A DNA stretch of 64,000 nucleotides, from the NCBI GenBank assembly GCA_014843695.1, contig CM026390.1, positions 11,541,890 to 11,605,889 on the forward strand. The letters are read 5' to 3'. Below are positions 3,068-61,628 of this stretch, piece after piece. Under the pieces are notes generated by a model. The model was not told the DNA's origin. It made no database searches and saw nothing but the letters and a program-made list of their open reading frames with translations. The translations under genes and the position numbers were made by a program. Numbering within the stretch: the stretch's first letter is position 1; every line of letters begins with the position of its first letter. The DNA is from Archivesica marissinica (Eukaryota > Mollusca > Bivalvia > Venerida > Vesicomyidae).

Positions 3068-3372
3068 GACGGATCTGTAGTCAAGTGGTAACACGCTGAA
3101 CTGGTAATCCGGGGATCGCAGGTTCGATCCCCCGTCTGGCCCTAATAAAATTAACAGTCTTTCAGGTGGGACATTAAACCGAGGTCTCGTGTCGGTGTTG
3201 TACACCGTGCACGTAAAAGAACCAGAGGAGACTCAGGAATGGGCCTCTGTCTGTATCATTGCACAATCCTCCACAAATCTAAAATGACTAATCTCTTCAG
3301 GAGGCGTCGCTCATATGGGTAACCGGTAGCGACGATAAATAAACGTAAAACACACGCACACACACGCATACT
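3068..3372 (+). mobile_element. tRNA-derived SINE, family B, with intact tRNA-like head
   Basis: The head at about 3066-3141 has a pairing acceptor stem (CAGACGG with CCGTCTG), A box TAGTCAAGTGGTAACACG and B box GGTTCGATCC. The loop CTGGTAA would put anticodon GGT (Thr-like). The body GGGACATTAAACCGAGGTCT ... GGCGTCGCTCATATGGGTAA ends in AATAAACG and a short CA-rich run. Two headless copies lie at 22428-22640 and 62938-63150. I call it a SINE rather than a tRNA gene because the body repeats. Confidence 0.82.
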
Positions 3373-27908: not shown

Positions 27909-28084
27909 TCAATCATCATCCTCAAACTGTTCATTGCGGGCTCGACGTTCTGTGTAATCCAGAGTCAGTGACCGTATCCTCTCCAACAACGTTACAAGCT
28001 CATCTCTCAGACAGCCACGTTGAAGCACAGCCTTCACCTTCATCAAACCATCTTCACATTCTAGCATGTCACAATATGTCTGAG
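27909..28084 (-). CDS. ZYG11B-like: Terminal exon 12 of ZYG11/ZER1-like gene
   Basis: Acceptor ACCATATGCAG. Encodes QTYCDMLECEDGLMKVKAVL through RIRSLTLDY and ends NEQFEDDD, then TGA at 27909-27911. The P-x-x-YC-x-ML-x-x-E-x-G block is the conserved end of the ARM domain. Downstream in the sense direction lies a SINE at 27352-27790; I did not find a convincing polyadenylation signal between them. Confidence 0.83.
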
Positions 28085-31000: not shown

Positions 31001-34000
31001 TGATGTAGACCTACAACCCAGCATTGATAAATAGAACTACACGAGTGTCAACATTATACCACACTTGATGTCGACCTACAACCCAGCATTGATAAATAGA
31101 ACTACACGAGTGTCAACATTATACCACACTTGATGTAGACCTACAACCCAGCATTAATTAATATAACTACATCACTGATGGTCACGGGTTCGAGCCCCCC
31201 TCAGGCCGTGTCTCATTTATATGAAAAAGTTGGCAGTTTCTTACGTAGGTTGGTGCACCTAAGTACTGGTTAACCGCTGGAGCCTGCCCAGGAAAGGTGT
31301 TATTAAGTAAACAGCCCGCCGGCGTTATAGCCCGAAATGGTGCTGATGCAGGCGTAAAACCCGAAATATAACATAACATAATATAACTACACAAGTGTAT
31401 CATCTTATTGTGTTATTTATTTAGATGGCTGGGTTATACAACATACTTTAACAATGATGCCATCTGAAGGACAGCTATATCCCGCTGAGCCACATCGTGA
31501 CATGAAGGTCCAAACATGTACCTTGTAGGACACAGGCACAAATCTTTTTATTTTGCCCTATGGTCATATAGTAAATAATGTTTACTGAAGGCAACCAACA
31601 GAAATAAAACATGCATGCAGAAACATCGACGAGAAACTACGTAAAATTGACCAGATCACTGATTCTTGTGGTCCCGACCGGAAGACCTTTTTCTATCAAC
31701 AAAAGCTTTTTATTTCATGGAGATCGGTCTAATAACACCAGAATGACACATTGTTTCATCTTGAACAGCAGGAAATGCAATGTTGTCGATTTCACTGGGC
31801 AAAAAAAAAGAAGATTTGTGTCTTGTGCCTGTGTTGTATGACAATAATAGTTCATGCACAGAATGCACAACTATTGAAATCTGTACAATTGCTAATATAA
31901 TACAGCATCAAACCGGTCATCATGGAGACACGTTGTGAAAGCTGGGGTCAGACGAGCCGAAGCTGATCGAACTCGGCTTCGTGAGCAGAAACGACAGAAG
32001 CGAAAGGCATCAACCAAACTGGATGACTCGATCTTCACCTGCGATGACTGCAACAGAGACTGCCACTCAAGAATAGGCCTACTCAGTCACCACAGAAGAT
32101 GTTCCTCAACAAGAGCGCAATCCATCGTCTCATAAGATGGACGGAGGCTGATGATAAGTTCCATGTTATGTCAAACCACCTGCGATGACATAGACATGTT
32201 TTCCTGGGCAGACTTAGCCGATCTAAGCAGTTAGCCTGTACTAATCAACGTGTGGGAGGTGTCTTGCTCAAAAATACTACATGTGTGCCATGACCGAGTA
32301 TCGAATCCGGGACCCTTTGAATCCAAATCTGGCACTCTACCACTGGACCATGCAACAACATGGTTAGAACATCGGTTCTGAACATCATTTCATGAACATT
32401 TGTCTCAAGCTTCACAAATATTCTTAACACTTAACCTGCCCAATAAATTGGATGATCTGTGCAAACAACATAGATCCAGATACGCCGTGTCTCATCAGGA
32501 TCTACGTTGATTGCTATTTAGACAAGTGTTTTAGCTCCACTATCTGAATTGCAAACAGCATAGAGCCTGATCAGACGGCACAAAATTGGAGGCCATGGGA
32601 GCTACACACAGATGTAGGGAGACCATGGCTAAACACAGATGTAGGGAGGCCATGGGAGCTACACACAGATGTAGGGAGACCATGACTAAACACAGATGTA
32701 GGGAGGCCATGGGAGCTACACACAGATGTAGGGAGGCCATGGGAGCTACACACAGATGTAGGGAGGCCATGTGAGCTACACACAGATGTAGGGAGGCCAT
32801 GGGAGCTACACTCTGATGTAGGGAGGCCATGGGAGCTACACACATATGTAGGGAGGCCATGGGAGCTACACACAGATGTAGGGAGGCCATGGGAGCTACA
32901 CACAGATGTAGGGATGCCATGGGAGCTACACACAGATGTAGGGAGGTCATGGCTACACACAGATGTAGGGAGGCCATGGGAGCTACACACAGATGTAGGG
33001 AGGCCATGGGAGCTACACACAGATGTAGGGAGGCCATGGGAGCTATACACATGGGGTGTGTGGGGGTGGCTACACACAGATGTAGGGAGGCCATGGTGTG
33101 TGGGGGTGGTGTGTGGGGGTGGCTAACACAGATGTAGGGAGGCCATGGGCATAAAACTTACGTTTAGTAATGATCAGATTACATATGAGCCAGGCTCCCC
33201 AGAGCTGAGCAACAGGTGTACTGTAATTTTCAATCTGTGACAGCATTGGACTTAATGACCTGAAAATAAACATCCAGTCTTCAAATACTAATATGTACAT
33301 AGCTATTGCATTTCCTTCGATGAACGTATGTGCTCCAATTGTATACAATTTCGTATGAAGGTTTCCAACTAATGATATGCAGATGACGTGTGCTCTCGAT
33401 GTTACGGGCATGCGCACCAGGGATCATTCTATAGGGCGATGTGGGCGAAATTGTTGCCCTAGGGACCCTGACTTCGCCCTCTGGGGGCCCCACTTCTCCC
33501 TAATAAAAAAAAATGTAAAAACATTATTTTTTGGTTTTTACGATTTTCAAACAAAATTTTGTCTAGTAAGATACACTGGCCCATTATAAAGCACTCCGTC
33601 TATTCAAATGTTGTATTTAATGGTTGTACTACTGTGCATTTTAACCCTATTTTGCAGAAGTATATTAAAGAACACCATTTAAGGAAGCGATCACGCACTT
33701 TCTCACTTCTCCCAAAAATTCTGACCTAGAATGAACCCTGCGCATTCGCAAAGTTTGTTACGTGAAAAGGCGTGTCTTACAGTGTATGCTGTAACAATAA
33801 TCTAGTTATCACGATAAGTCGCAAAGTTGGACTAAATACATTTTAATTGGAAAGTGATATTTTTTCTTTGTCTCATTGAAAAGAATAATTAATGTAAATA
33901 TAAGAAATGAATCGCGGGTTAATAGTTTCCATCTAGGTATGAACTACATTGGGTGTGTTTAAAGTTACCGTGGATGACACAGATTTGTTCAAGCTCACTC

Positions 34001-37000
34001 AATGTAGTTCATACCCCAATAAGCATTGACAACTTATATTAAATCATTCTCATTGGTGCGAATGAATGCGTATTTTTATGTGTGTTATTGGATTGTTGAC
34101 ATGGTATATGAACAGTGCCAGCGAGTAGTGATTGTTCCAAGCCGCAGGTAAATTCAGCTTAAAAACAACGTTTTTCAGTCATTATTTGTTTACGGGTTGT
34201 CATCGATTTTGTTTTATCATTTTTACCCTATGGACTGCCTCCACTGAGTAACTTCATGATTGGGTGATTTTTATCTTGACACCGACACATCCCTTATTTG
34301 GAATCCCGTAAATGTCCAGGCTTCCCGCTAATGGCGCCAAAAAAACAAATACTAGCGCTAAAGTTTGTGAATTGGCGAAAATATTTGGTGCAACGTTTTA
34401 TTTTCCAAATACATGGCTTCAAATATTTATTTGTGAACTATATGGCTATATAAGTTATTTTTAATTGGCTCCAGTGTTTTTCAATTGGCGACAGAAGTGG
34501 CGCAGACAAACATTCAGACAGAGGGAACCCTGAATGTCCAGTAGATTTACATATCCTCTCTCGCTGTAGTCTTGCAGGGTGTTAAGAAATTCAACATATT
34601 TAAATGGAGAAAAATATAGAAGTATAACGTTCGTCGAGTTGTACAGATGCATTGCGCACAGTTCACCCATATACGCAGCATTCGTTCTTATTTTGAGAAT
34701 CGTGAGGCATGCGAAAGGTATGCATTTTAATATGCATATATATACCCTGGCTGAGGACACTGGTATACCCGGAGAAAATCCACTTGTCCGATCTTGTGAC
34801 CACCATACAATCTCACATATTTCCCGGTCAGAGGATCGAACCCAGGATGCATTGGTGAGAAGCGACCACGCTAACCATTGCGCTACAGTAGCAATGCTGC
34901 ATACACAACAGCCAATCTTACACAATACAATGATAAGTAACTAATTGGGTCAATATAAAAAGAAACAACACAGCATGGAAATCATTTCCACCTAAATACT
35001 GGCCATAAACTATCCACTTCGGGCGTGAACTATCCACTTCGGGCGTGAACTATCCACTTTGGGCGTGAACTATCCACCATTTTGCTGTGGATTATTCTCC
35101 ATAAACACATGCTCTATCCCCATTTGGCCATAAACTATCCCCCTGCAGCATGTGAGTTACCCACTTGGTCCATGATAGTCGTGATCTATCCCCAGCTATG
35201 CCCTCTCAGCCATGAACTATCTCAGCCGTGAATGATTCCCCTTCAGACATGAACAATCTCCCTTCAGCCGTCAGCTATGCCCTCTCAGCCATGAACTATC
35301 TCCCTTCAGCCATCAACCATCTCCCTACAGCCGTGAATTAATTCCCTTCAGACATGAACTATCCCCGTTCAGCCATCAACCATCTCCCTACAGCCGTGAA
35401 TTAACTCCCTTCAGACGTGAACTATCCCCCGTCAGCCATCAACCTTCTCCCTACAGCCGTGAATTAACTCCCTTCAGCCGTCAACCATCTCCCTACAGCC
35501 GTGAATTAACTCCATTTAGACATGAACTATCCTCCTTCAGCCGTGAACTATCTCCCTTCAGACAGGAACTATCTCCCTTCAGACAGGAACTATCCCCCTT
35601 CAGACATGAACTATCTCCCTTCAGCCGTGAACTATCCCCCTTCAGCCGTCAACCATCTCCCTACAGTCGTGAATTAACTCCCTTCAGACATGAACTATCT
35701 CCCTTCAGACATGAACGATCTCCCTTCAGACATGAACTATCCCCCTTCAGGCATGAACTATCCCCCTTCAGCCTTGAACTGTCTCCCTTCAGCTGTGAAC
35801 TTTCTAGCTCCAGCCATGAACCATCTCCCTTCAGCACGGAACTATCCCTCTTCAGCCCGGAACTATCCCTCTTCAGGTATGAACTATCTCCCTTCAACTG
35901 AGAAATAACCCCTAGCTGGGAACTACACCCCTTAAACTGTAAACTACCCCCTTCAGCTAGGAACTACTCACATTCCAGCATTGAACCGAAAATCAATTTT
36001 TACACAACATTTATTGTACATAAATTTGCTCACCATCCAGTTACGTCATTTATAATTTGTAGATCATACAAACCACTATGACTAACCCAAGTAAACCAAC
36101 GCAGACCCAGTGTTCACAAAAAGATCACATATCGTGTAGGAACAGATCATTTCAATACAAGTAATACATTATTTATAATCAGTTTCTGTAGGTACATTTC
36201 AGAAATAATTACTTACTGGCTAAGATTTGCTTCTAGTTAACCCCTGCAATGTCAGCAAAGTTCCAGGAAAAGTTACCTGAATTTCACTCCTTTTGATTTA
36301 TGTATGTCCCATTTCTTCATGACCTGGTCCACCTCCTCCAGTATGATCTCTCTGGAAGGGTTCACCAGGGTCCAGGCCTGGGTTCCATGCGACGCAAGCA
36401 TGACTAGGAAACCAGCCGCATGAGAACTTGCATCATAATCCTCTTCACCATAGTACAATAACATCTCCCTGAAAACACCCCCGTAGTATAATGACATACC
36501 CTGTAGTATAATAACCTACCCTGTAGTATAATAACCTACCCTGTAGTACAATAACATACCCTGTAGTATAATAACATACCCTGTAGTACAATAACATACC
36601 CTGTAGTATAATAACATACCCTGTAGTACAATAACATACCCTGTAGTATAATAACATACCCTGTAGTATAATAACATACCCTGTAGTACAATAACATACC
36701 CTGTAGTACAATAACATACCCTGTAGTACAATAACATACCCTGTAGTACAATAACATAATATGTAGTATAATAACCTACCCTGTAGTATAATAACATACC
36801 CTGTAGTATAATAACATACCCTGTAGTATAATAACATACCCTGTAGTACAATAACATACCCTGTAGTATAATAACATACCCTGTAGTATAATAACATAAT
36901 ATGTAGTATAATAACCTACCCTGTAGTATAATAACATACCCTGTAGTATAATAACATACCCTGTAGTATAATAACATACCCTGTAGTATAATAACATACC

Positions 37001-40000
37001 CTGTAGTATAATAACATACCCTGTAGTACAATAACCTACCCTGTAGTACAATAACATACCCTGTAGTATAATAACATACCCTGTAGTATAATAACATACC
37101 CTGTAGTACAATAACATACCCTGTAGTATAATAACATACCCTGTAGTATAATAACATATGTAGTATAATAACCTACCCTGTAGTACAATAACATACCCTG
37201 TAGTACAATAACATACCCTGTAGTACAATAACATACCCTGTAGTACAATAACATACCCTGTAGTATAATAACATACCCTGTAGTATAATAACATACCCTG
37301 TAGTATAATAACATACCCTGTAGTACAATAACATACCCTGTAGTATAATAACATACCCTGTAGTACAATAACATACCCTGTAGTATAATAACATACCCTG
37401 TAGTATAATAACATATGTAGTATAATAACCTACCCTGTAGTATAATAACATACCCTGTAGTACAATAACATACCCTGTAGTACAATAACATACCCTGTAG
37501 TACAATAACATACCATGTAGTATAATAACATACCCTGTAGTATAATAACATACCCTGTAGTATAATAACATACCCTGTAGTACAATAACATACCCTGTAG
37601 TATAATAACATACCCTGTAGTACAATAACATACCCTGTAGTATAATAACATACCCTGTAGTATAATAACATAATATGTAGTACAATAACATACCCTGTAG
37701 TACAATAACATACCCTGTAGTATAATAACATACCCTGTAGTACAATAACATACCCTGTAGTACAATAACATACCCTGTAGTACAATAACATACCCTGTAG
37801 TACAATAACATACCCTGTAGTATAATAACATACCCTGTAGTACAATAACATACCCTGTAGTATAATAACATACTATGTAGTATAATAACATACCCTGTAG
37901 TACAATAACATACCCTGTAGTATAATAACATACCCTGTAGTATAATAACATACCCTGTAGTACAATAACATACCCTGTAGTATAATAACATACCCTGTAG
38001 TATAATAACATACCCTGTAGTATAATAACATACCCTGTAGTATAATAACCTACCCTGTAGTATAATAACATACCCTGTAGTATAATAACATAATATGTAG
38101 TATAATAACATACCCTGTAGTATAATAACATACCCTGTAGTACAATAACATACCCTGTAGTATAATAACATAATATGTAGTACAATAACATACCCTGTAG
38201 TACAATAACATACCCTGTAGTACAATAACATACCCTGTAGTATAATAACATAATAAGTAGTACAATAACATACCCTGTAGTACAATAACATACCCTGTAG
38301 TATAATAACATACCCTGTAGTATAATAACATACCCTGTAGTACAATAACATACCCTGTAGTATAATAACATACCCTGTAGTACAATAACATACTATGTAG
38401 TATAATAACCTACCCTGTAGTACAATAACATACCCTGTAGTATAATAACATACCATGTAGTACAATAACATACCCTGTAGTACAATAACATACCCTGTAG
38501 TATAATAACATAATATGTAGTACAATAACATACCCTGTAGTATAATAACATACCCTGTAGTATAATAACATACCCTGTAGTACAATAACCTACCCTGTAG
38601 TACAATAACATACCCTGTAGTACAATAACATACCCTGTAGTATAATAACATACCCTGTAGTATAATAACATACCCTGTAGTACAATAACCTACCCTGTAG
38701 TACAATAACATACCCTGTAGTACAATAACATACCCTGTAGTATAATAACATACCCTGTAGTACAATAACATACCCTGTAGTATAATAACATACCCTGTAG
38801 TATAATAACCTACCCTGTAGTACAATAACCTACCCTGTAGTACAATAACATACCCTGTAGTATAATAACATACCCTGTAGTATAATAACATACCCTGTAG
38901 TATAATAACATACCCTGTAGTACAATAACATACCCTGTAGTACAATAACATACCCTGTAGTACAATAACATACCCTGTAGTACAATAACATACCCTGTAG
39001 TATAATAACATACCCTGTAGTATAATAACCTACCCTGTAGTACAATAACATACCCTGTAGTATAATAACCTACCCTGTAGTACAATAACATACCCTGTAG
39101 TATAATAACATACCCTGTAGTATAATAACATACCCTGTAGTATAATAACCTACCCTGTAGTATAATAACCTACCCTGTAGTACAATAACATACCCTGTAG
39201 TATAATAACATACCCTGTAGTACAATAACATACCCTGTAGTATAATAACATACCCTGTAGTACAATAACATACCCTGTAGTATAATAACATACCCTGTAG
39301 TACAATAACATACCCTGTAGTATAATAACATACCCTGTAGTATAATAACATACCCTGTAGTACAATAACATACCCTGTAGTATAATAACATACCCTGTAG
39401 TACAATAACATACCCTGTAGTACAATAACATAATATGTAGTACAATAACCTACCCTGTAGTATAATAACATACCCTGTAGTATAATAACATACCCTGTAG
39501 TATAATAACATATCCTGTAGTACAATAACATACCCTGTAGTACAATAACATACCCTGTAGTATAATAACATAATATGTAGTATAATAACCTACCCTGTAG
39601 TATAATAACATACCCTGTAGTATAATAACATAATATGTAGTATAATAACCTACCCTGTAGTATAATAACATACCCTGTAGTATAATAACATACCCTGTAG
39701 TACAATAACCTACCCTGTAGTACAATAACATACCCTGTAGTATAATAACATACCCTGTAGTATAATAACCTACCCTGTAGTACAATAACCTACCCTGTAG
39801 TACAATAACATACCCTGTAGTACAATAACATACCCTGTAGTATAATAACATACCCTGTAGTATAATAACCTACCCTGTAGTACAATAACCTACCCTGTAG
39901 TACAATAACATACCCTGTAGTATAATAACATACCCTGTAGTACAATAACCTTCCCTGTAGTATAATAACATACCCTGTAGTACAATAACATACCCTGTAG

Positions 40001-49000: not shown

Positions 49001-52000
49001 ATACACATATATCAAGTCCAAGCTACGCCCCTGTGGACAATTACAGGATATAACTGACCTTGACATGTTAAAACTGACCTTGACATGTTAAAACTGACCT
49101 CGACATGTTACAACTGACCTTGACAAAAGGTATCTAACGCAGAACAAATTATAGCTGACCTTGAAGAGTTGCGGCTACATTGATAAACTGCAACTGACTG
49201 TGACAATTTTCAAGTGACCATGATATGTTGCAACCAACCTTGATAAGTTGTAATTTTCCACCAACGACAGCCTTGTATTCCTGACTGACCCTGCATGCCG
49301 AGTGTAATAGACGTAGTGATAGCATTTTTTGCGTCCATTTAGCTGGACTGTGGAAAATGCCAACCAGAACTTGCACATACTGCTCAAACCTGTAGCTGTA
49401 CACCTGAAAACAGCCATTCAGTACTGTATGTATCTATGTATAACACGCTAAAATATATAACGCACATTGGGGTGGGAGAGGGGGCAGTATTTTTCATGAC
49501 TATTAACAAAACAATGAAAATCTAAAGTTATAGTTTATATAAATTTATTTTAGCTCAATTGCGAAACAAATTCTTTCAACTTATATTAATCACTCTCGAG
49601 ACCTCATTCCTGATGGAATCCATCACCACGAGGGAGAGAAGAGGCAGCGTGGAATTTAAATGCCTTGCCTAAGGGCACAATCATAACGGCTCCAGCGGGG
49701 CTCGAACTCCGGACCTTTCACACATGAAGCGAACGCGCATCCACTGCACTATCACGACTTCCACAATGAAAATCTAGAAAATTGCAATCCTCTACATAGT
49801 AAATGACTGTACACTGACCAGTGTCCTTCCAAAGATTTCAAAATGCGAGAACATTAGTCTCATTGAGTAGAAGAAAAACACAGTTTAACTGTTTTATTTG
49901 TGGTACTTGGAAATGTAGACATACCAGAGCATCTAATTGTTAATATTACTTATTTAGAATTACTTTAGGAATTCGCTTGGTTAATTTCTATCTAAATTTG
50001 TTTCCCTAAATTATTAATGTTTTTCAGGTAAAACCTTTCAAAAGAGGAATCAAGTTTATTTCATGGCAAACACATGCATCATGTTGGCTTTCTGTCCAGT
50101 AGCTGGATTTCACTGAAATGTAAGCTGTTACAAATGTGTACTATGCACTGTCAGTGATGTATTGTAAACTATACATACTTAATATTGTCGGTAAGGCATA
50201 TTGAATCAGTCTGTCATAATTATCGTTTACAGCATAAATCATTTCAGTAGAATTGTGTAAATTTGTATTGCAAGATTTATCTTATTGTCAGTTTTACTTT
50301 TTTTCCAGGATGGATGGGATGGGATGGGATGGGATTGGATGGGATGGGATGGGATGGGATGGGATGGGATGGGATGGGATGGGATGGGATGGATGGATGG
50401 ATGGATGGATGGATGGATGGACGGAAACATAATTGTATATTAGGCGGCTATTCCTTTGATCCCTATAGCCACATCCGATGGGAATTGATAGCCACATCAA
50501 AGTTTTTATAGCGATATAAACACTAATTATATAGTTCTAGTCAAGTAAGTACAACTTTATGCGGTTGGATGGGTAGGTGGATGGACGGACATGTGAACAC
50601 TGCCAAAAACACTATCCATCCACCATTAGGATGGACGGACATGTGAACACTGCCAAAACGCTATCCATCCACCATTAGGATGGACGGACATGTGAACACT
50701 GCAAAAACACTATCCATCCACCATTGGGATGGATGGACATGTGAACACTGCCAAAACACTATCCATCCACCATTGGGATGGATGGACATGTGAACACTGC
50801 AAAAACACTATCCATCCACCATTGGGATGGATGGACATGTGAACACTGCAAAAACACTATCCATCCACCATTGGGATAAACAGACATGTGAACACTGCCA
50901 AAACACTATCCATCTACCATCGGGATGGACGGACATGTGAACACTGCAAAACACTATCCATCCACCATTAGGATGGACGGACATGTGAACACTGCCAAAA
51001 CACTATCCATCCACCATTAGGATGGACGGACATGTGAACACTGCCAAAACACTATCCATCCACCATTGGGATGGACGGACATGTGAACACTGCAAAAACA
51101 CTATCCATCCACCATTGGGATGGGACATGTGAACACTGCCAAAACACTATTCATCCACCATTGGGATGGACGGACATGTGAACACTGCAAAAAACTATCC
51201 ATCCACCATGGGATAAACAGACATGTGAACACTGCCAAAACACTATCCATCCACCATTGGGATGGACGGACATGTGAACACTGCCAAAACACTATCCATC
51301 CACCATTGGGATGGACGGACATGTGAACACTGCCAAAACACTATCCATCCACCATTGGGATGGACGGATGTCTGAACACTGCCAAAACACTATCGATCCA
51401 CCATTGGGATGGACGGATGTCTGAACACTGCCAAAACACTATCGATCCACCATTGGGATGGACGGATGTCTGAACACTGCCAAAACACTATCCATCCACC
51501 ATTGGGATGGACAGACATGTGAACACTGCCAAAACACTATCCATCCACCATTGGGATGGACGGACATGTGAACACTGCCAAAACACTATCCATCCACCAT
51601 CGGGATGGACGGACATGTGAACACTGCCAAAACACTATCCATCCACCATTGGGATGGACGGACATGTGAACACTATCCATCATCGGGATGGACGGACATG
51701 TGAACACTGCCAAAACACTATCCATCCACCATCGGCAGAGTATAACAAGACTATTTTTGTGGATTACGTGAACCTTGTTAGGGGCAGAACGCCGAGGGCA
51801 AGGAATGGCGCTCTTTGATTTATGCCTACCTGGAGCTCTGCAGCAAAGTTTTTAGATATTGTTCATAGCAGATAGTAAGCATGCAACTTACAACAACAGT
51901 TTCCAAGTCTAGAATTAGGACCAGCAACATTGCAATTCTCACAATCTGTAAAATACACAACACCACAGTACATATATTTGAAATGTTATGGGTTTCTCTC

Positions 52001-55000
52001 TAAGCTGACTGAAAGGATGATTCCCATGGATGGAAACTACAGCTATCACTGAATATGAATAATGACCCCCCCCCCCACACACACTTCAGTGCTGGTATTC
52101 AGAAGACAGAAACTTATTCACACATCAACAAATATAAGATGTGGGATAGTTTAAACATTATTTATTTCAGTAATTGGACATGTAATCAAGAAATGAACAT
52201 TTTACATATAATTTAACAGCAGTAGACTGAAAGGCTTAGAACGAAAGAAAACTGATATAGTTCTTCTCCCTAGGATAGCATAGAGTGACTCCTGTACTGA
52301 CATTATATATCTGACTGTTTTGATGCTTGTAGCATTTACATAAATAATATTACTAACGCACAAAAAATAACCACCTTAGTTTATAAAACATTAGCGCTAA
52401 CCAGGGTTCCTGCTCGCGGTCGTCATTTTTGCAATTGTCAAAAAAAGAAGGAATTGGCGGTAAAAATAATGATTCAGAGAATCATTAAAAAAAAATGTTC
52501 AGCTGTTAAATATATATAATATTCAATTTGCAACCGTAACTATCTCCAAGTTAAGTTCTGTTTCACACCTGCCAGTAAATTCCTAAATCCTGGACAGGAT
52601 GTTAATTAGACTACACCCCACATGTGACACCTGAAATATGCCAAAGCGGTATTGGCAAGGACTTAAAAAATTTATTTTCTCCAATGGAAACCCTGGCTAA
52701 CTAAACATCTTAGTATGCTCATCCAGATGGTTTGCCAGTGGTGAGTGTAAATAAACCTGGTGAGGGTAAATAAACCTGGTGAGTGTAAATAAACCTGGTG
52801 AGGGTAAATAAACCTGGTGAGGGTAAATAAACCTGGTGAGGGTAAATAAACCTGGTGAGTGTAAATAAACCTGGTGAGGGTAAATAAACCTGGTGAGTGT
52901 AAATAAACCTGGTGAGGGTAAATAAACCTGGTGAGTGTAAATAAACATGGTGAGTGTAAATAAACATGGTGAGGGTAAATAAACCTGGTGAGGGTAAATA
53001 AACCTGGTGAGTGTAAATAAACCTGGTGAGGGTAAATAAACCTGGTGAGGGTAAATAAACCTGGTGAGGGTAAATAAACCTGGTGAGGGTAAATAAACCT
53101 AGTGAGTGTAAATAAACCTGGTGAGGGTAAATAAACCTGGTGAGGGTAAATAAACCTGGTGAGGGTAAATAAACCTGGTGAGTGTAAATAAACCTGGTGA
53201 GGGTAAATAAACCTGGTGAGTGTAAATAAACCTGGTGAGGGTAAATAACCCTGGTGAGGGTAAATAAACCTGGTGAGTGTAAATAAACCTGGTGAGGGTA
53301 AATAAACCTGGTGAGGGTAAATAAACCTGATGAGGGTAAATAAACCTGGTGAGTGTAAATAAACCTGGTGAGGGTAAATAAACCTGGTGAGGGTAAATAA
53401 ACCTGGTGAGGGTAAAAAAACAAATAAACCTGGTGAGGGTAATAAACCCATCATTATCTCATTATCAGCGCTGGTAGTAAGAATGGGGAAAGCGGACAGT
53501 GCATTCTAGTAGACCTATCACGGAACAGAATTCATAAACGCCACTAGTAGTAAGGGGGGGGGGAGAAAGAGTCAATGGAATCATTGTTTTCTGAAATGAT
53601 TATAAGACCATCATTCCTGTCAAGTTTCAGCAAGATTTATCAAGCGGAATTCAGAGATGTCATTTGAAGCAAATCTGGAATCCAATATCAACACACAGAA
53701 TTAGGAATCAAGCATCAATTTGCACAATGTTTGTACAGGGTCACGATATATCAATGGTGTAAAAAATGTTATTCCAAATCAACCAATCTTACCTTATTTT
53801 TCTCGTTTTGATTTGAACTGAGCCAGCTGGTGTTTACATTGAGGGCATGACAAATGATCAATATTTGCTCCATTAACATTCTGAAAAATATAATACATCA
53901 ATCAAATGAAGAACACAGTTTTGTGGCGCTAAAAATGTCTTGATAGTTTGACAGTAAATAAAGCTATGTGAAAAAAACATGTGAAAAATACCATAGGAAA
54001 CCAGTGCAAAACTCCATTCAACAGTAAGCAATTGGTGCTTTTCAGTATAGATCTCTAGTGGCTGTCCGATCCTCGCACAGGGAAGTATGTGAGATGGTAC
54101 AGTGGTCTCCAGATCGGACAGGTGGGTTTTCTCCGGGTACTCCGGTTTCCTCCCACATGAATGACCACATATACGCTTTCATCCGAGCCAACGAGAGTGA
54201 TTAATATAAGTTGTTAAAACTTGCTTCGCAATCGTTGTAAAATAAATAGTGTAAAAAACAACAGTAATCAAAATGGCAGCAGCACACGATGCAACCTGAT
54301 ACAACAAATTGTCCTTACTGTAGACAAAGGTGATACACAGAAACAGGAAAATTAAGTAAAATAACTACACTACTACTACTTCAAATAATTTAGCCTTCAC
54401 TGCTGTAGGTTGGAATCTCACTGGGGGCATTGACTTCTTTCATGCGAGGTAGCTATCCAATTGACTTGCAGAAGGTCGGTGATTCTACCTGGGTGCCAAT
54501 CCGTGCCTGGAATACTGCTCAGAGGGGCACCCAGGGTCTGCTCGGAGGGGCACCCAGGGTCTGCTCGGAGGGGCACCCAGGGTCTGCTCGGAGGGGCACC
54601 CAGGGTCTGCTCAGAGGGGCACCCAGGGTCTTCCACCTTTAGGCAACTTATATTAATCACTCTCGTTGGCTCGGATGAAAGCGTATACATGTATGTGGTC
54701 GTGATAGCTCAGTGGATGCGCGTTCGCTTCAGGTGCGAAAGGTCCGGAGTTCGAGCCCCGCTGAAGCCGTTACGATTGTGCCCTTAGGCAAGGCATTTAA
54801 ATTCCACGTTGCCTCTTCTCTCTCCCTCATGGCGATGGATTCCATCAGGAATGAGGTCTCGAGAGTGATAAATATAAGTTGTAAGAACTTGTTTCACAAT
54901 CGAGCTAAAATAAATTTGTATAAACTAAAGGATCTAAATTGTTGGTGCGACTTTAAAATCCCAAAACACACAAACAAATTTTAAGTTTCTCGTCCTTCTA

Positions 55001-58000: not shown

Positions 58001-61000
58001 TTGCCAGCCATAGTATTGATAACAAACTGAACTCTAGCCTGTCTCCCTCAGCTCTCACTTCTCCCTATATTGAGCACAGGGAGAAGGGGTTTCCATATAG
58101 AATACATCAGGGCTTCTAAAATTGCCGGTCTCCCAGTCCAGGACAGAATGGACCAGTTGTAGAACCAAAAAGAAAAAAGAAAATTGTTTAAAAAGCCAAG
58201 AAATTCGTCAAATACATTTTTCTAACGAACCTAAATTGGTAAATATAATCTCTCGATAAGGTGTATAAATGTTCACACATGTTTCCGGTCTAAAATCGAT
58301 ATGCGACCTTCTTGACTATTGTCCGATAATCCCAATACCATACATTACCAATCTGAGATATGTTTTGCCCGATGCACTAAATTGTCAATAAGATTATAGT
58401 CTATAAGGGAAGTAACTGCTACGGAGCTTCTTCAAATTACAACAGGTCTGTGTCTAAATATATCTAAAAATAGATATGGAATTTTGTTTGTAGAAAATTG
58501 ATTTTGCTACACAGTGCAATGTCGATTTCGGCTTGGATCGATTTGGTTTTGAACATTTTAGAAGCCCTGGAATACATGTACATGTATAATAGAGAGGACA
58601 AAACCTGTTCTAGTTCCCGGCGTGTTTGTACTCATCAATAACGTGTTGTGAGCTCAGTACGAACGAACGATGTAATTTTGTTTATAGTCGCCACCGCATA
58701 AATGCATTTGGGCGACTGTATTTTCTAAGATGGTTGTGTCCTAAGGTGATTCTTCTTGTCTAAGGTGATTCTTCTTGTCCTAAGGTGATTCTTCTGTGGT
58801 GGTTATTCGATGATGATTATACGTGTTCTGTGCTGATTATTCCTATGCTTCTATGATGATTATTCCTGTTCTTCTACGTTGATTAGTTCCGTATTCTCTG
58901 AAGGTTCTGTATTCTGTGTGGCTTATGAAGACGTCATCAGGTGGTTACTTCTTTCTGTGCCGGCCAGGTTGACAAGGCCTGGTCTGTACGTGGTCCTTTG
59001 TAGGGCCACACTCCTCACTGTTGGTCACCCCGCAGCAGCATTTATACGGATCTGACAGTTAGACATCTGGTCGTCGATTGTCGCAAACGAGTCTACTAAA
59101 CTCCGGTGTAGCTCGGGGGAGCGTGGATCCACGACTGTTGCCGCTCCCTCAGGTCCGCCGTCTCGTCTATCCGCCGGAGAAGTAGAAGAAGGAAGAGAAA
59201 GTGTCGAAAAAAGCCGGCGAAAATATAGTGTCTCAATATCACTATCTAAAGTGTCCACTATCCAGAAGAGCTGGTGGATCTGTCCTGATGTGCCGTAGCC
59301 ATGGATCCACATGCTGGCGAGCCTCCCCTTCACAAGATCGACGACCAGAAGATCCCAGAATCCTACGCTGCTGCTGCGGAATGTGCCCCGGTCACGACGT
59401 GCACGTCGTGAGGAGATCGACCGGGGTGAGCTCAGTTTGAGAATTCTCACTATTTATACCCCCTGATGGTCGAATCAGTTTGAACCGGATACCCGATACA
59501 TGACGGGACGGTAGCTGGTTCTGTAACTGGTTCCATTTTACTGGCTATGTGTTCCTCCCACCATCATAAAGTTCTTGATGCCATTACCAATACCACATAC
59601 ATTGACAATGTAGTAGCCAAACCAATGTTCATAATATAATCCAGAATTTCATGTAGTCCCAGTAATATCTATGGAGGTGGGATAGATATGGTGACTACTT
59701 ATCCACTGCATGATAGCTAAATGGCTGTCGTTTGTATGGAGATATAATAGTATATTAACCTAAATCTCTATGTAGTCCCAGTACTATCTATGGAGGTGGG
59801 ATAGATATGGCGACTACTTATCCACTGCATGATAGCTAAATGACTGTCGTTTATATGGAGATATAATAGTATATTAACCTAAATTTCTATGTAGTTCCAG
59901 TAATATCTATGGAGGTGGGATAGATATGGCGACTACTTATCCACTGCATGATAGCTAAATGTCTGTCGTTTGCATGGAGATATAATAATATATTAACCTA
60001 AATCTCTATGAAGGAAAGAGTTAAGGACCTAGGGCTCATGTAATCTTCTACAAAATATTCTTGTGTTATGCGCAACGTCACATGTTACACCAAAATACCA
60101 ACAGAATGCACATAGCCGTACAATTTCTGTAAACTAATGGCAATTATATTTTAAATGCATTTCTCCTTATGAAAAATTACAAAAATTTCATTAATAGAAC
60201 ACATAATGAATCACAACATGAGCCACTAATAAAGCACAACTTATCATTTTAGGCGAAAGAAAGACGGAATCTTTATCTGAAAGGCAAATTTATGGTGGAT
60301 TTATGAACATTTGAATTGGGTAACTCATACTTTAAACTTCTAGCTTAAGATTAATTATACGTGTTCAATCTAGGTGTACATTGACAGGAAAATTGTGTAT
60401 CAACATATCGACAACATATCGTTTATTATACAGTCAAACAGGTCTTAAGCAGCCGGCCAAGGGAATCACAGAAAGTGGCTGCTTAGCACAGGTGGCTGCT
60501 TAATAGAGGTCAAATGTATAATAAGACAGCATATTGGGAATCTGGAATCTGGCTGCTTAATACAGGTTGGCTGCTTAATGGAGGTGACCACTAACACAGG
60601 TTTGACTGTACATTACACAGGTTCAAAGTGAAATAAAACTACCATAATCATCCTTCAACTACTATCGGTATATACAAACAACACTTACAAGACATGGCTA
60701 ACATTTCGGTATATACAAACAACACTTACAAGACATGGCTAACATTTCGGTATATACAAACAACACTTACAAGACATGGCTAACATTTCGGTATATACAA
60801 ACAACACTTACAAGACATGGCTAACATTTCGGTATATACAAACAACACTTACAAGACATGGCTAACATTTCGGTATATACAAACAACACTTACAAGACAT
60901 GGCTAACATTTGGTATATACAAACAACACTTACAAGACACGGCTAACATTTCGGTATATACAAACAACACTTACAAGACACGGCTAACATTTCGGTATAT

Positions 61001-61628
61001 ACAAACAACACTTACAAGACACGGCTAACATTTCGGTATATACAAACAACACTTACAAGACACGGCTAACATTTCGGTATATACAAACAACACTTACAGG
61101 ACACGGCTAACATTTCGGTATATACAAACAACACTTACAGGACACGGCTAACATTTCGGTATATACAAACAACACTTACAGGACACGGCTAACATTTCGG
61201 TATATACAAACAACACTTACAGGACACGGCTAACATTTCGGTATATACAAACAACACTTACAGGACACGGCTAACATTTCGGTATATACAAACAACACTT
61301 ACAGGACACGGCTAACATTTCGGTATATACAAACAACACTTACAGGACACGGCTAACATTTCGGTATATACAAACAACACTTACAGGACACGGCTAACAT
61401 TTCGGTATATACAAACAACACTTACAGGACACGGCTAACATTTCGGTATATACAAACAACACTTACAGGACACGGCTAACATTTCGGTATATACAAACAA
61501 CACTTACAGGACACAGCTAACATTTCGGTATATACAAACAACACTTACAAGACATGGCTAACATTCTTTTCCTCGATATAGTCTGAATCACCACAGCCAG
61601 ATAACTTAGCCATGAAGGTTATCAAGCC
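27909..61628 (-). CDS. ZYG11B-like: ZYG11/ZER1-family gene, ARM-repeat half, 12 exons (5' end outside window)
   Basis: Known family role: ZYG11/ZER1 proteins are substrate receptors of CUL2-RING ubiquitin ligases and recognise N-terminal glycine degrons through C-terminal armadillo repeats; the N-terminal half has a VHL box and leucine-rich repeats. Seen here: twelve minus-strand exons (61549-61628, 55220-55285, 53793-53880, 51892-51945, 49239-49403, 45931-46024, 44704-44774, 43485-43532, 40441-40508, 36277-36468, 33162-33259, 27909-28084), all with GT donors and AG acceptors and compatible phases, total 1200 nt = 399 codons plus TGA. Family landmarks appear in the right order: IWTLTDEVPGNCELFVQHGG (exons 6-7), SHAAGFLVMLASHGTQAW (exon 10), QLWGAWLICN (exon 11) and YCDMLECEDG (exon 12). 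The length fits the ARM half of a family of roughly 750 residues. The LRR half is not in the window. No frameshift or premature stop was seen, so the gene looks functional. I cannot tell ZYG11 from ZER1 orthology by eye. Confidence 0.8.
28386..29394. mobile_element. Non-autonomous DNA element, CAGGG ends, 6-bp target duplication
   Basis: Ends CAGGGTTTTCCC and GGGGAAACCCTG; TTATTG flanks both sides (28380-28385, 29395-29400). No transposase inside. It contains a 49-bp tandem repeat at 28664-28992 (CACCAAATGCTCTAGTTGCA). Probably hAT-like by ends; the 6-bp duplication is shorter than the usual 8. Confidence 0.82.
28664..28992. repeat. 49-bp tandem repeat, about 6-7 copies
   Basis: Unit contains CATAACACCAAATGCTCTAG and TTGCACTGACAAAGTCCA. 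Internal to the element at 28386-29394. Confidence 0.92.
29870..31171. repeat. 65-bp minisatellite, about 20 copies, with 57-bp variants
   Basis: Unit contains CCCAGCATTGATAAATAGAA and CTACACGAGTGTCAACATT. The shorter variants lack TACAACCC (CTGTCGACCAGCATTG). Variant order recurs (for example 30457-30780 against 30817-31080), indicating block duplication. It lies in intron 11. Confidence 0.94.
31172..31378 (+). mobile_element. SINE family E inserted in the 65-bp array
   Basis: B box GGTTCGAGCCC at the start (head truncated), body TTACGTAGGTTGGTGCACC and CCGAAATGGTGCTGATGCAG, tail AACATAACA. TAATATAACTACA (13 bp) flanks both sides at 31159-31171 and 31379-31391, so the insertion site is a repeat unit. 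Confidence 0.85.
31400..31915. other. Unassigned intronic stretch
   Basis: No recognised domain or repeat. Confidence 0.4.
31916..32140 (+). pseudogene. C-terminal end of a LINE ORF with C2H2-like finger
   Basis: WRHVVKAGVRRAEADRTRLR then FTCDDCNRDCHSRIGLLSHH with final RRC. A C-x2-C ... S-R-I-G-L-x-S-H finger after a basic stretch is a known terminus of some animal non-LTR retrotransposon ORFs. Antisense to the host gene, inside intron 11. Confidence 0.62.
32275..32370 (-). mobile_element. tRNA-like SINE fragment
   Basis: The minus strand reads A box TGGTCCAGTGGTAGAGTGCC and B box GGATTCGATACTC with tRNA spacing. No second copy was found in the window, so it may be a pseudo-tRNA. Confidence 0.55.
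32461..32500. repeat. Palindromic word shared with the 47-bp-array elements
   Basis: AGATCCAGATACGCCGTGTC followed by TCATCAGGATCT. The same imperfect palindrome occurs at about 44161-44206 and inverted at 47674-47706. Confidence 0.6.
32587..33150. repeat. 30-bp minisatellite beside exon 11 donor, about 18 copies
   Basis: Unit GAGCTACACACAGATGTAGG + GAGGCCATGG; some copies are 25 bp and lack GAGCT. The array starts about 12 nt after the exon 11 donor (sense strand) but does not copy exon sequence. 30 = 10 codons, so frames stay open; I treat these as noncoding. Confidence 0.93.
33162..33259 (-). CDS. ZYG11B-like: Exon 11 of ZYG11/ZER1-like gene
   Basis: Acceptor GTTTATTTTCAG, 98 nt, donor GTAAGT. 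Encodes SLSPMLSQIENYSTPVAQL then WGAWLICNLIITK (residues 310-341); Q-L-W-x-x-W is a family hallmark. Ends in phase 1, and the C is completed by exon 12 to Pro. A 30-bp array begins about 12 nt after the donor. Confidence 0.85.
33320..34015. mobile_element. Small hairpin element, copy 2, with a nested insertion
   Basis: Matches 8083-8505: GAACGTATGTGCTCCAATTG ... GGGCATGCGCA, then (after 33740) CGCATTCGCAAAG ... GCGGGTTAATAGTTTCCATC. It is interrupted by the element at 33418-33739. The right hairpin arm is truncated, and a SINE C tail fragment lies at 34027-34087. Confidence 0.8.
33418..33739. mobile_element. CAGGG-ended non-autonomous element nested in the hairpin element
   Basis: Ends CAGGGATCATTCTATA and CCTAGAATGAACCCT; flanks GCGCAC (33412-33417) and GCGCAT (33740-33745) are a 6-bp duplication with one mismatch. 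The final G of the right end overlaps the duplication. No ORF of note. Confidence 0.72.
34317..34532. mobile_element. CAGGG-ended non-autonomous element, AATGTC duplication
   Basis: Ends CAGGCTTCCCGCT and AGAGGGAACCCTG; exact 6-bp duplication AATGTC at 34311-34316 and 34533-34538. 216 bp, intron 10. Confidence 0.8.
34744..34898 (-). mobile_element. SINE family C with tRNA-like head
   Basis: The minus strand from 34898 has A box TAGCGCAATGGTTAGCGTGG, B box GGTTCGATCC, body GACCGGGAAATATGTGAGAT and TTTTCTCCGGGTATACC. It lacks the 3' tail found in copies 43660-43875 and 54066-54255. Confidence 0.82.
34988..35955. repeat. 21-bp degenerate minisatellite, 40+ copies
   Basis: Consensus near CATGAACTATCTCCCTTCAG A. 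Copies vary (CCGTGAATTAACTCC, CATCAACCATCTCC), so the array is older than its neighbours. Intron 10. Confidence 0.9.
35956..36276. other. Intronic, no recognisable feature
   Basis: Nothing seen beyond the exon 10 donor at 36276. Confidence 0.4.
36277..36468 (-). CDS. ZYG11B-like: Exon 10 of ZYG11/ZER1-like gene, acceptor seeds 20-bp array
   Basis: Acceptor GGTGTTTTCAG, 192 nt, donor GTAACT. Encodes residues 246-308 including EMLLYYGEEDYDA and the strongest family block SHAAGFLVMLASHGTQAW, then a W at the end of VMKKW. The 3.6-kb array directly upstream in the intron is built from units that look like this acceptor and exon start. Confidence 0.85.
36482..40094 (-). repeat. 20-bp array built on the exon 10 acceptor, about 180 copies
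   Basis: Sense-strand unit TACTACAGGGTATGTTATTG (C/T variable at one site; occasional ATATTATG and 18-bp variants). The exon 10 start reads CAGGGAGATGTTATTGTACT, nearly the same. Each unit has an acceptor-like TACTACAGG and a donor-like GGTATGT. Both array edges carry TGTTTTCAGGG (36467-36477 real, about 40093-40103 copy). Because 20 is not a multiple of 3, three units make a 20-residue period, and long open frames (up to 612 codons) arise by chance. Confidence 0.95.
40128..40312 (-). mobile_element. tRNA-derived SINE, single copy
   Basis: The minus strand has A box TGGCCTAGTGGTTACGGG, CTGCCTACGGAGCATGAGG (ACG-like anticodon, Arg-type) and B box AGGTTCGAACCTTG, then body GGGCCTGCAAGGATAGGAAA. 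Intron 9, in the sense orientation of the host gene. Confidence 0.68.
40313..40440. other. Intron 9 segment after exon 9
   Basis: No feature besides the donor. Confidence 0.4.
40441..40508 (-). CDS. ZYG11B-like: Exon 9 of ZYG11/ZER1-like gene
   Basis: Acceptor TTTTGTTTTCAG, 68 nt, donor GTAATC. Encodes NNVSENASLIQWLMTSDLV and on to IMF plus AG. It corresponds to the family segment N-x-x-E that follows the exon 8 helix; phase 2 matches exon 10. Confidence 0.78.
40645..41425. repeat. 60/51-bp minisatellite, about 13 copies
   Basis: Unit contains GATTCTGGTGATGAATATTC and CATAATTCCATAGTTCACTA. Long units add CACCCATAC, and short ones go straight to CTACATGAT. A 224-bp block recurs (41017 and 41241), so the latest growth was by multi-unit duplication. 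Confidence 0.93.
41430..43500 (-). repeat. 94-bp array built on the exon 8 donor, contains assembly gap
   Basis: Sense-strand unit: TTGTTATGCAG, then GAAGATCTGCAGTGCTATG (copy of the exon 8 end), then GTACGTAACTAATTTATGAT (copy of the donor and intron start). Roughly 3.4 units lie left of the gap and 8 right of it, nearly identical. The right-most unit merges into the real exon 8 (AAGATCAGCGGTGCTATG). Confidence 0.95.
41752..42751. other. Assembly gap, 1000 N
   Basis: Exactly 1000 N inside the 94-bp array, with the same unit on both sides. The length is a placeholder and the true array is probably longer. Confidence 0.98.
43485..43532 (-). CDS. ZYG11B-like: Exon 8 of ZYG11/ZER1-like gene, donor seeds 94-bp array
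   Basis: Acceptor TAATGTTTCAG, 48 nt, phase 0 at both ends, donor GTACGT. Encodes KYPGSKSLHRKISGAM (residues 207-222). Its last ~21 nt plus the donor recur in every unit of the 94-bp array that fills the next intron. Confidence 0.78.
43660..43875 (+). mobile_element. SINE family C, head truncated
   Basis: GGGTTTGATCC (B box remnant), CGGGAAGTATGTGAGATGG, GGTTTTCTCCGGGTACTCC, tail GATTAATATAAGTTATTAAA ... AAAATAAATAG and poly-A. Confidence 0.85.
43876..44140. other. Intron 7, A/T-rich, no feature
   Basis: Nothing recognised. Confidence 0.4.
44141..44595. repeat. Element with 47-bp array, copy 1 (6 units)
   Basis: Flank TTCAACACTACAGACGTCTA ... palindrome at 44161-44206 ... GATAAATGGAACTGGTCCAA, then 47-bp units TTAAATATCATGCACCAGTC + CATGTCAGTTACTTGGTG. 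An inverted homologue lies at 46428-47735. Confidence 0.85.
44704..44774 (-). CDS. ZYG11B-like: Exon 7 of ZYG11/ZER1-like gene
   Basis: Acceptor TTGTTTTGACAG, 71 nt, donor GTAAGT. Encodes EVPGNCELFVQHGGCQLAK and on to TCID (residues 184-206), the conserved DE-x-P-x-x-C-x-x-F segment. Ends in phase 0. Confidence 0.82.
45073..45603. repeat. 22-bp minisatellite, about 24 copies
   Basis: Unit CGGAGATATTGGGATAATGT AT; main variants are AACGT, AACAT and AATGT. Intron 6. Confidence 0.94.
45931..46024 (-). CDS. ZYG11B-like: Exon 6 of ZYG11/ZER1-like gene
   Basis: Acceptor TTTGATTCAG, 94 nt, donor GTAACA. Encodes KLFMVIMDKVAEEDEVDEVL and on to VWSIIWTLT, with a final G completed by exon 7 to give Asp. 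The WTLT-D join reproduces the W-N/T-L-T-D-E signature of the family ARM core. Confidence 0.82.
46026..46427. other. Intron 5 segment, no recognisable feature
   Basis: Includes C-rich runs near 46195; nothing else. Confidence 0.4.
46428..47735. repeat. Element with 47-bp array, copy 2 (about 24 units), inverted relative to copy 1
   Basis: Units TTTAACCCATTCAACACCAA + GTAACTGACATGGACTGGTG + CATGATA at 46428-47578. Then a flank containing the palindrome GATCCTGATGAGATGGCTCA (47674) and ending CTACAGACCTCTAAATTGG when reversed. It is the reverse complement of 44141-44595. Confidence 0.88.
47905..49238 (-). repeat. 20-bp array related to the exon 5 donor
   Basis: Plus-strand unit TTGCATCTGACCATGACATG. 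The core is 47905-48700, with diverged units again at 49040-49238 up to the exon 5 donor. The sense strand gives GTCAAGGTCAGTTGCAAC-like units, matching the exon end and donor ATCAAG-GTTGGTTGCAAC. The interval 48720-49030 is unrelated sequence. Confidence 0.85.
49239..49403 (-). CDS. ZYG11B-like: Exon 5 of ZYG11/ZER1-like gene
   Basis: Acceptor GGCTGTTTTCAG, 165 nt (55 codons), donor AAG-GTTGGT. Encodes residues 97-151, starting VYSYRFEQYVQVLVGIF and ending VVGGKLQLIK. It continues directly into exon 6 KLFMVIMDK, as in the family. The exon end and donor resemble units of the 20-bp array in the following intron. Confidence 0.75.
49560..49765 (-). mobile_element. SINE family A
   Basis: Reverse complement of the 54697 copy. 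On the minus strand it has a degenerate A box (ATAGTGCAGTGGATGCGCG), B box GTTCGAGCCCC, CTTAGGCAAGGCATTTAAAT and tail GAGAGTGATTAATATAAG. Confidence 0.87.
49766..50310. other. Intron 4 segment, no recognisable feature
   Basis: No supported feature. Confidence 0.4.
50309..50422. repeat. GGGAT/GGAT microsatellite
   Basis: GGGAT repeats (50311-50390) pass into GGAT repeats (50388-50420). Confidence 0.97.
50575..51735. repeat. 49-bp minisatellite, about 23 copies
   Basis: Unit contains GGATGGACGGACATGTGAAC and CAAAACACTATCCATCCACC. The unit ends are partly self-complementary (GGATGG ... CCATCC), so each unit can fold. Upstream GGATGG microsatellite shares this word. Intron 4. Confidence 0.93.
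51892..51945 (-). CDS. ZYG11B-like: Exon 4 of ZYG11/ZER1-like gene
   Basis: Acceptor TGTATTTTACAG, 54 nt (18 codons, phase 0 at both ends), donor GTAAGT. Encodes IVRIAMLLVLILDLETVV, a hydrophobic helix at the place where family members have a leucine-rich ARM helix. Confidence 0.68.
52402..52695. mobile_element. CAGGG-ended non-autonomous element, GCTAAC duplication
   Basis: Ends CAGGGTTCCTGCTC and CCAATGGAAACCCTG; exact 6-bp duplication GCTAAC at 52396-52401 and 52696-52701. 294 bp, intron 3. Confidence 0.82.
52739..53447. repeat. 18-bp minisatellite, about 39 copies
   Basis: Unit AACCTGGTGAGGGTAAAT with G/T at one site. The sense strand of the host gene reads TTTACCCTCACCAGGTT, an acceptor-like pyrimidine-CAG word in every unit. 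Intron 3. Confidence 0.95.
53793..53880 (-). CDS. ZYG11B-like: Exon 3 of ZYG11/ZER1-like gene
   Basis: Acceptor ATATTTTTCAG, 88 nt, donor GTAAGA. Encodes MLMEQILIICHALNVNTSWL through NEKNK (residues 50-78) and ends in phase 0. One other frame is open almost to the donor, but only this frame joins exons 2 and 4 in phase. Confidence 0.68.
54066..54255 (+). mobile_element. SINE family C, head truncated
   Basis: GATCCTCGCACAGGGAAGTA, TTTTCTCCGGGTACTCCGG, tail GAGAGTGATTAATATAAG and AAAATAAATAG. Close to the 43660 copy. Confidence 0.86.
54405..54640 (+). mobile_element. SINE family D with 23-bp expansion
   Basis: Starts in the tRNA-like head (CTGTAGGTTGGAATCTC), body CATGCGAGGTAGCTATCC and GATTCTACCTGGGTGCC. 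Then GGGGCACCCAGGGTCTGCTC is repeated five times with a 23-bp period (54518-54640). The repeat comes from the part of the SINE just before the segment amplified at 27352. Confidence 0.78.
54641..54696 (-). mobile_element. SINE family C 3' tail fragment
   Basis: AACTTATATTAATCACTCTC followed by GGATGAAAGCGTATAC, the reverse complement of the family C tail. Confidence 0.75.
54697..54918 (+). mobile_element. SINE family A
   Basis: A box TAGCTCAGTGGATGCGCG, B box GTTCGAGCCCC, body TGTGCCCTTAGGCAAGGC, tail GAGAGTGATAAATATAAG ... CTAAAATAAAT. It lies directly against the family C fragment. Confidence 0.88.
55220..55285 (-). CDS. ZYG11B-like: Exon 2 of ZYG11/ZER1-like gene
   Basis: Acceptor TGTATGTTTCAG, 66 nt, donor GTATGA. 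Encodes HCLYFVLRNDEVKKYITI and on to KQQ, with AG left over for an Arg codon finished by exon 3. This fits an ARM-type helix pair upstream of the conserved core. Confidence 0.7.
55286..55740. other. Intron 1 segment; possible truncated CAGGG-ended element
   Basis: CAGGGCCCGCGCTGCCAGTC at 55565 resembles the left end of a hAT-like element, but no matching right end was found. Also a C10 run near 55680. Confidence 0.35.
55741..56400. repeat. 66-bp minisatellite, 10 copies
   Basis: Unit contains CATTTGCATGCTTATCATGT and TCCCTAGCCTATGGAGTACA. 66 = 22 codons, giving a 261-codon open frame by periodicity. A block of five units appears duplicated, because the CATGTTCATG variant (with AATCTCC in the following unit) occurs twice, 330 bp apart. 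Intron 1. Confidence 0.94.
56429..57163. mobile_element. ~740-bp retroposon, copy 1
   Basis: Flanked by GGAGAATCATAC at 56417-56428 and 57164-57175. 95%-like identity by eye to 58659-59425, apart from a ~27-bp deletion. It has a hairpin word AGTCGCC ... GGCGACT near one end next to a simple-repeat tail (TTCTTCTT). It contains MDPHAGEPPLHKIDDQKIPE (36 codons, +), function unknown. Confidence 0.75.
57176..58099. other. Intron 1 segment, no recognisable feature
   Basis: AT-rich; a 61-codon frame at 57244-57429 is not recognised. Confidence 0.4.
58108..58569. mobile_element. hAT-like non-autonomous element, 8-bp duplication
   Basis: Ends CAGGGCTTCTAAAATTG and CATTTTAGAAGCCCTG; exact 8-bp duplication GAATACAT at 58100-58107 and 58570-58577. 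No ORF. Confidence 0.88.
58659..59425. mobile_element. ~740-bp retroposon, copy 2
   Basis: Flanked by GTGAGCTCAGT at 58648-58658 and 59426-59436, different from copy 1, so each copy is its own insertion. The simple tail here is ACGAACGAACGA. A 141-codon minus frame (59025-59450) overlaps it but is not shared intact in copy 1. Confidence 0.78.
59570..60022. mobile_element. MITE with internal ~121-bp triplication
   Basis: The right end TCTATGAAGGAAAGAGTTAA is the inverse of TTAACCCTTTCCCTCATAGA at 62140. Inside, GTAGTCCCAG(T)A ... ATTAACCTAAATCTCTAT occurs three times. Confidence 0.75.
60430..60610. mobile_element. MITE with ACAGTCAAACC ends, copy 2
   Basis: Inverted relative to 18453-18633. 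Ends TACAGTCAAACAGG and CAGGTTTGACTGTA; internal GGCTGCTTAATAGAGG words. Confidence 0.86.
60666..61560 (-). repeat. 41-bp array built on the exon 1 donor, about 22 copies
   Basis: Sense-strand unit: AATGTTAGCCATGTCTT (copy of exon end) + GTAAGTGTTGTTTGTATATA (copy of donor and intron start) + CCGA. The exon-proximal unit carries CATGTCTT like exon 1. A middle block has CGTGTCCT, and the far units have CATGTCTT again. Confidence 0.96.
61549..61628 (-). CDS. ZYG11B-like: Exon 1 (first in window) of ZYG11/ZER1-like gene
   Basis: Acceptor TTTGTTTCAG, then residues 1-26 beginning GLITFMAKLSGCGDSDY and ending VSHV plus TT; donor GTAAGTGTTG. Phase 2 matches exon 2, whose first A completes a Leu codon. 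Reading through the donor meets TAA at once, so this donor must be used. The last 17 nt and the donor are the seed of the 41-bp array that follows in the intron. Residue-level similarity to the family is weakest here; the assignment rests on phase, spacing and position. Confidence 0.65.

Follow-up and report, generated by a model that had tools for sequence, protein, structure and literature searches.

Intronic minisatellites resembling the adjacent exon edges in a ZER1-like gene

A ZER1-like gene on the minus strand of the DNA analysed here carries intronic minisatellite arrays whose units resemble the edges of the adjoining exons 1, 5, 8, and 10, and in comparisons within the window (the whole stretch of 64,000 nucleotides) each of these unit families is confined to its own intron. 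Tandem repeats of a similar kind are known from amphioxus as “mirages,” i.e., minisatellite-like repeats that lie across exon-intron boundaries, at both 5′ and 3′ boundaries (PMC3087553). We consider it quite likely that the arrays of the ZER1-like gene are mirage minisatellites that were born by slippage, became homogenised, and are tolerated without having a function. The sequence under study represents one haplotype and includes a gap of 1000 N.

The secure part of the gene consists of exons 5–12 (Table 1), which have canonical AG/GT edges throughout and, when joined, form a single frame of 912 nt (303 codons plus the stop). The joined exons match the Pfam family PF22964 (ZER1-like_2nd) with 205.2 bits (cut-off 27), which bears out the ZYG11/ZER1-like gene proposed in the initial annotation and places the product with the C-terminal domain of the ZER1/ZYG11 family. 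With a preliminary version of the joins, matches were obtained to solved human ZER1 (E = 1.9e-36) and to ZYG11B (best E = 7.8e-32).

Upstream of this part, exons 1, 3, and 4 are predictions. They are in frame, have good splice sites and share one open frame into exon 5. Their addition brought no gain in the PF22964 score (203.1, 204.9, and 204.6 bits with them, respectively, versus 205.2 bits without), and their comparison with the human ZER1 and ZYG11B sequences was not significant, as shuffled sequences score about equally. The codon log-odds of the three exons are only suggestive of coding status: among background windows free of stops, 5.7, 23.3, and 6.4%, respectively, do as well. Exon 1 is probably an internal rather than the first exon, because an acceptor-like TTTTGTTTCAG stands before it. 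A reading frame at 55.4–55.6 kb was also considered as an upstream exon and was rejected, with no PF22964 match in either of the two constructs containing it.

Table 1. Exons of the ZER1-like gene and the arrays at their edges. Positions are those of the window; a slash marks the exon-intron boundary.
Feature	Positions	Strand	Remarks
Exon 1 (predicted)	61549..61628	-	donor CTT/GTAAGT; open frame into exons 3, 4, and 5; without homology support
41-bp array, exon 1 donor	60665..61565	-	22 copies, one of them exon-borne (17 bases of exon, 24 of intron)
Exon 3 (predicted)	53793..53880	-	frame and splice sites only
Exon 4 (predicted)	51892..51945	-	frame and splice sites only
Exon 5	49239..49403	-	donor AAG/GTTGGT; splice sites, frame, and Pfam match
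20-bp array, exon-proximal diverged part	49052..49250	-	about 12 bases into exon 5; TRF row is 49052-49125 only
20-bp array, distal part (intron 5)	47902..48640	-	
Exon 6	45931..46024	-	splice sites, frame, and Pfam match
Exon 7	44704..44774	-	splice sites, frame, and Pfam match
Exon 8	43485..43532	-	donor ATG/GTACGT; splice sites, frame, and Pfam match
94-bp array, exon 8 donor type	41427..43506	-	1000 N at 41752-42751 inside
Exon 9	40441..40508	-	splice sites, frame, and Pfam match
Far-end copy of exon 10 acceptor	40078..40104	-	TTTTCAG at 40096-40102
20-bp array, exon 10	36479..40095	-	about 181 units like the 20-base start of the exon
Exon 10	36277..36468	-	acceptor TTTTCAG/GGAGATG; splice sites, frame, and Pfam match
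Exon 11	33162..33259	-	splice sites, frame, and Pfam match
Exon 12, stop codon included	27909..28084	-	splice sites, frame, and Pfam match

The likeness between arrays and exon edges was assessed on the exon side only: the 20 exonic bases at each of 21 exon edges were compared with 20 arrays that had been trimmed back from the exons, which makes 420 tests; the background was formed by 1500 random 20-mers. The four best of the 420 pairs are exactly the four that had been claimed, each with an array in the intron adjoining that edge. The donor edges of exon 8 (94-bp array, 18/20), exon 1 (41-bp array, 17/20), and exon 5 (20-bp array, 16/20) were each equalled by 0 of 1500 random 20-mers, and the head of exon 10 (20-bp array, 16/20) by one of the 1500. 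The fifth-best pair, the exon 7 donor with a 30-bp array (p = 0.0027), is non-adjacent and at chance level for 420 tests, and it was set aside. Because the four best pairs are the claimed ones, we regard the copying of exon edges into arrays as real, and the seeding of some arrays at exon edges as supported. The initial annotation had described all four units as copies of the exon-intron junction. Likeness was found at all four edges and units that truly span the junction occur at exons 1 and 8, whereas the unit at exon 10 corresponds to the head of the exon and the case of exon 5 is weak.

Copies spanning a junction were counted with 70-base junction probes. At exon 1, itself a predicted exon, 21 intronic copies span the junction, so that the unit crosses the boundary as mirage units do. 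These copies are 0 to 3 bases off the exon copy. The six farthest from the exon are equal to the exon copy except for a one-base phase shift and the nearest ones carry private changes; thus, the far end of this array is not its diverged end.

The junction of exon 8 is spanned by 10 copies, and here too the unit extends across the boundary in the manner of a mirage. Apart from two single changes, the complete intronic copies are all alike; relative to them, the exon copy has two different exon bases and a small indel in its intronic part. The gap, which measures exactly 1000 N (41752-42751), probably has a placeholder size rather than its true length, and since it lies inside the array the number of 94-bp copies is not fixed by this assembly. 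Within each unit, an acceptor-like TTATGCAG is followed by 19 bases and then by the copied donor GTACGTAA, and from this order of signals the 19 bases form a possible pseudo-micro-exon. Such repeat-borne acceptor/donor pairs could turn into exons, as proposed for the amphioxus globins in a published model (PMC3087553), and the arrays might then be on their way to becoming new exons or introns; however, they are intronic, with ZER1-aligned exons on both sides, and we give this route very little credence.

At exon 10, the array unit is GGGTATGTTATTATACTACA, which also occurs in a frequent variant, and it is similar to the 20-base start of the exon, GGAGATGTTATTGTACTATG, at 16 of 20 positions. 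The acceptor is spanned by only one of 244 similarity hits, so that the units do not extend across the boundary as those of a mirage would. The sole acceptor-spanning copy (40078-40104) covers 27 bases with 88.9% identity (E = 0.003), and the motif TTTTCAG occurs only twice in 36400-40160, once per array end, as the true acceptor and at 40096-40102. The earlier figure of “about 180 decoys” of this acceptor is therefore wrong as stated: the unit resembles the exon head, and the real acceptor recurs once, at the far end. The map of unit variants lost phase at 37415, and its counts thus refer to part of the array; the copy number is taken from separate listings. The arrangement is as if a first duplication had taken in the acceptor and the exon-head part alone had multiplied afterwards.

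The array at exon 5 is old and strongly diverged and makes a weak case. Its 20-bp periodicity continues 11–12 bases inside the exon. When the exon side was compared with two consensus units the result was not significant, being equalled by 153 and 76 of 400 shuffles and by 180 and 86 of 400 window 30-mers. The comparison with actual copies was significant, with the best match in the distal part of the array and p = 0.042 for the near part alone. Two copies span the junction, the better one with 86.8% identity over 38 bases.

As regards the direction of copying, the alignment with human ZER1 takes in the edges of exons 5, 8, and 10, and these exons are therefore likely to be the source and the arrays the derivative, i.e., the three exons would be older than their arrays. 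The direction is less sure at exon 10, because the aligned residues there fall in a variable stretch.

The initial annotation knew of no described system of this kind; amphioxus mirages (PMC3087553, PMC3902484) and human IFI6 (PMC4526556) are in fact already in print. Mirages were first found in Adh3 (units of 10–72 bp) and then in the globin genes BflGb6 and BflGb9 (150–160 bp); they show concerted evolution inside the array, with boundary units excluded from homogenisation and splicing apparently undisturbed, and they have been proposed as a source of new introns (PMC3087553). Further amphioxus cases are PGBD5 and troponin C (PMC3902484). Tandem repeats across exon-intron boundaries are common to these genes and the ZER1-like gene, and the amphioxus units, which range in length from tens of bp to about 160 bp, in many cases contain splice signals (PMC3087553, PMC3902484). 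The arrays described here most likely belong to this known kind. They differ from the amphioxus mirages, as far as the cited excerpts describe these, in their number per gene (up to four), in their copy number (up to about 181 units), and in including one array made of an exon head only. In the same excerpts, normal splicing of Adh3 and the globins is backed by RT-PCR, whereas the ZER1-like gene was analysed at the level of DNA. A related process is intron gain by tandem genomic duplication (AGGT), in which the duplication takes place around splice signals (PMC3443670); there, a single duplication gives a new intron inside an exon, whereas the ZER1-like gene has many copies inside existing introns. 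A uniform interior with differing end copies is seen at exons 8 and 10; in the array of exon 1, the copies at the far end match that of the exon.

A minisatellite with multiple splice donors was reportedly described in human IFI6 (also called 6-16 or G1P3) by Turri, Cuin, and Porter in 1995. Minisatellite repeat units at an exon end of this gene serve as splice donors, with two downstream units in use (PMC4526556), and the presence of repeated splice donors in a minisatellite is a feature that it shares with the ZER1-like gene (PMC4526556). By analogy, selection could maintain the copies in the ZER1-like gene as spare or regulated splice sites, a possibility that gains from the IFI6 precedent (PMC4526556) and from the density of donor-like sites: using a donor scoring matrix, those of at least 3 bits number 191 in 6507 bases of the junction arrays versus 1 in 8461 bases of other arrays. 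That density, however, follows from the copying of the donor itself and carries no sign of selection. With the same matrix, 31 sites in the arrays of exons 1, 5, and 8 reach or exceed the score of the real donor of their exon, and none of the 31 would leave an open frame to the normal stop; 30 hit a stop inside the retained intron. For exon 1 this frame test covers the 10 decoys whose score is not below that of the real donor, with the other copies (CCT/GTAAGT) outside it, and upstream of exon 5 it is built on the predicted exons 1, 3, and 4. Likewise, none of the 166 decoy CAGs in 36469-40110 keeps the frame, the 167th CAG being the true acceptor. Since all 31 decoy donors and all 166 decoy CAGs break the frame, use of a decoy would be harmful rather than selected, and while IFI6 uses its repeat donors, decoy use in the ZER1-like gene would break the frame at every donor examined (31/31). 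Selection for splice-site redundancy, one of the origins suggested initially, thus finds no support in these frames, and we regard it as very improbable.

We favor reading the arrays as slippage-born mirages because the four best of 420 matches are adjacent to their arrays, 21 and 10 copies span the junctions of exons 1 and 8, and the unit families are restricted to their own introns, and also because of the variant maps and the broken frames of the decoys. A further reason is that the mirages described in the cited excerpts share traits with these arrays, including boundary units that are excluded (PMC3087553). Under this reading, the arrays would start by ordinary local tandem duplication, through slippage during replication or through unequal exchange, and the first duplicated segment would have straddled or touched an exon edge; minisatellites are unusually abundant in the introns of this gene. 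Selection would keep the exon-side copy of the junction intact and in use, so that duplications could be tolerated, and the remaining copies would spread and homogenise without function. Both the mutational step and the tolerance of the arrays by the spliceosome are what we infer from these patterns. Replication slippage remains the simplest of the three ideas initially put forward, the other two being splice-site redundancy and splicing-coupled DNA damage. Two features speak against the mirage reading: the far-end copies at exon 1 equal the exon copy, and the exon 10 unit is an exon head only.

Another point against it comes from the placement of the arrays. When 22 arrays were shuffled along the gene, using our own array limits (partly extended beyond those of TRF at exons 5 and 10), an average of 0.66 overlapped exon ends, as compared with the 4 actually seen (P = 0.0025; 0.69 and P = 0.0033 in another run). 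Chance is thus insufficient as an explanation unless the reader's choice of the window accounts for the excess. Counting also arrays within 45 bp of exon ends gave 5 versus 1.89 (P = 0.028), restriction to exons 5–12 gave 3 versus 0.58 (P = 0.017), and cutting the exon 5 array to its TRF row gave 3 versus 0.67 with all exons (P = 0.025) and, under the strictest choices, 2 versus 0.57 with exons 5–12 only (P = 0.11). The excess at exon ends would fit a process linked to splicing or transcription (e.g., R-loops or breaks at exon edges) that targets junctions and seeds arrays there beyond chance. Such a process would also fit the load of the gene, where, by our own listing, tandem arrays make up 16603 of 33720 bases of the span 27909-61628 (49%, with the 1000-N gap counted in) as compared with 3000 of 27908 bases (11%) in the left part, 1-27908. 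On the other hand, many arrays are remote from exon edges, and because the data come from one gene in a window picked for its oddness, with P = 0.11 under the strictest choices, a claim of junction preference cannot be carried. We therefore regard a junction-targeting process as unlikely.

Several other features of the window were recorded. Minisatellite density is about 4.6 times higher in the gene span than in 1-27908. Two 47-bp arrays (44308-44593 and 46442-47575) belong to one family and are inverted relative to each other, with 97.2% identity over 286 bases; they sit in introns 7 and 5, respectively, and flank exons 6 and 7 as a bracket. Inverted repeats that bracket exons form a geometry that favors back-splicing or exon skipping. 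A direct duplication of about 760 bp with 93.6% identity joins 56437-57168 and about 58671-59429. Near the exon 11 donor, a 30-bp array (32588-33122) starts about 12 nt into intron 11; it was rejected as a further junction array, as its units match intron bases and not the exon. Slippage driven by hairpins was likewise dismissed, since none of the four units folds better than shuffled sequence (z 0.43 to 1.59). Rfam returned only one marginal tRNA, at 3071-3143.

A wider interpretation is that minisatellites of this genome arise preferentially at exon-intron junctions, by a process coupled to splicing or transcription, with several independent mirages per gene, including the exon-head array of about 181 units, and that, the host not being a lancelet, this process would be wider than reported; we think this quite unlikely. 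A host other than a lancelet would widen the range from which mirages are known. Mirages bear on how the spliceosome picks the right site among near-identical neighbours, and on whether tandem duplications at splice junctions contribute to intron gain. For both questions, a gene carrying several mirages of different age, from the exon 1 copies that are 0 to 3 bases off to the strongly diverged array at exon 5, would be a good natural test object.
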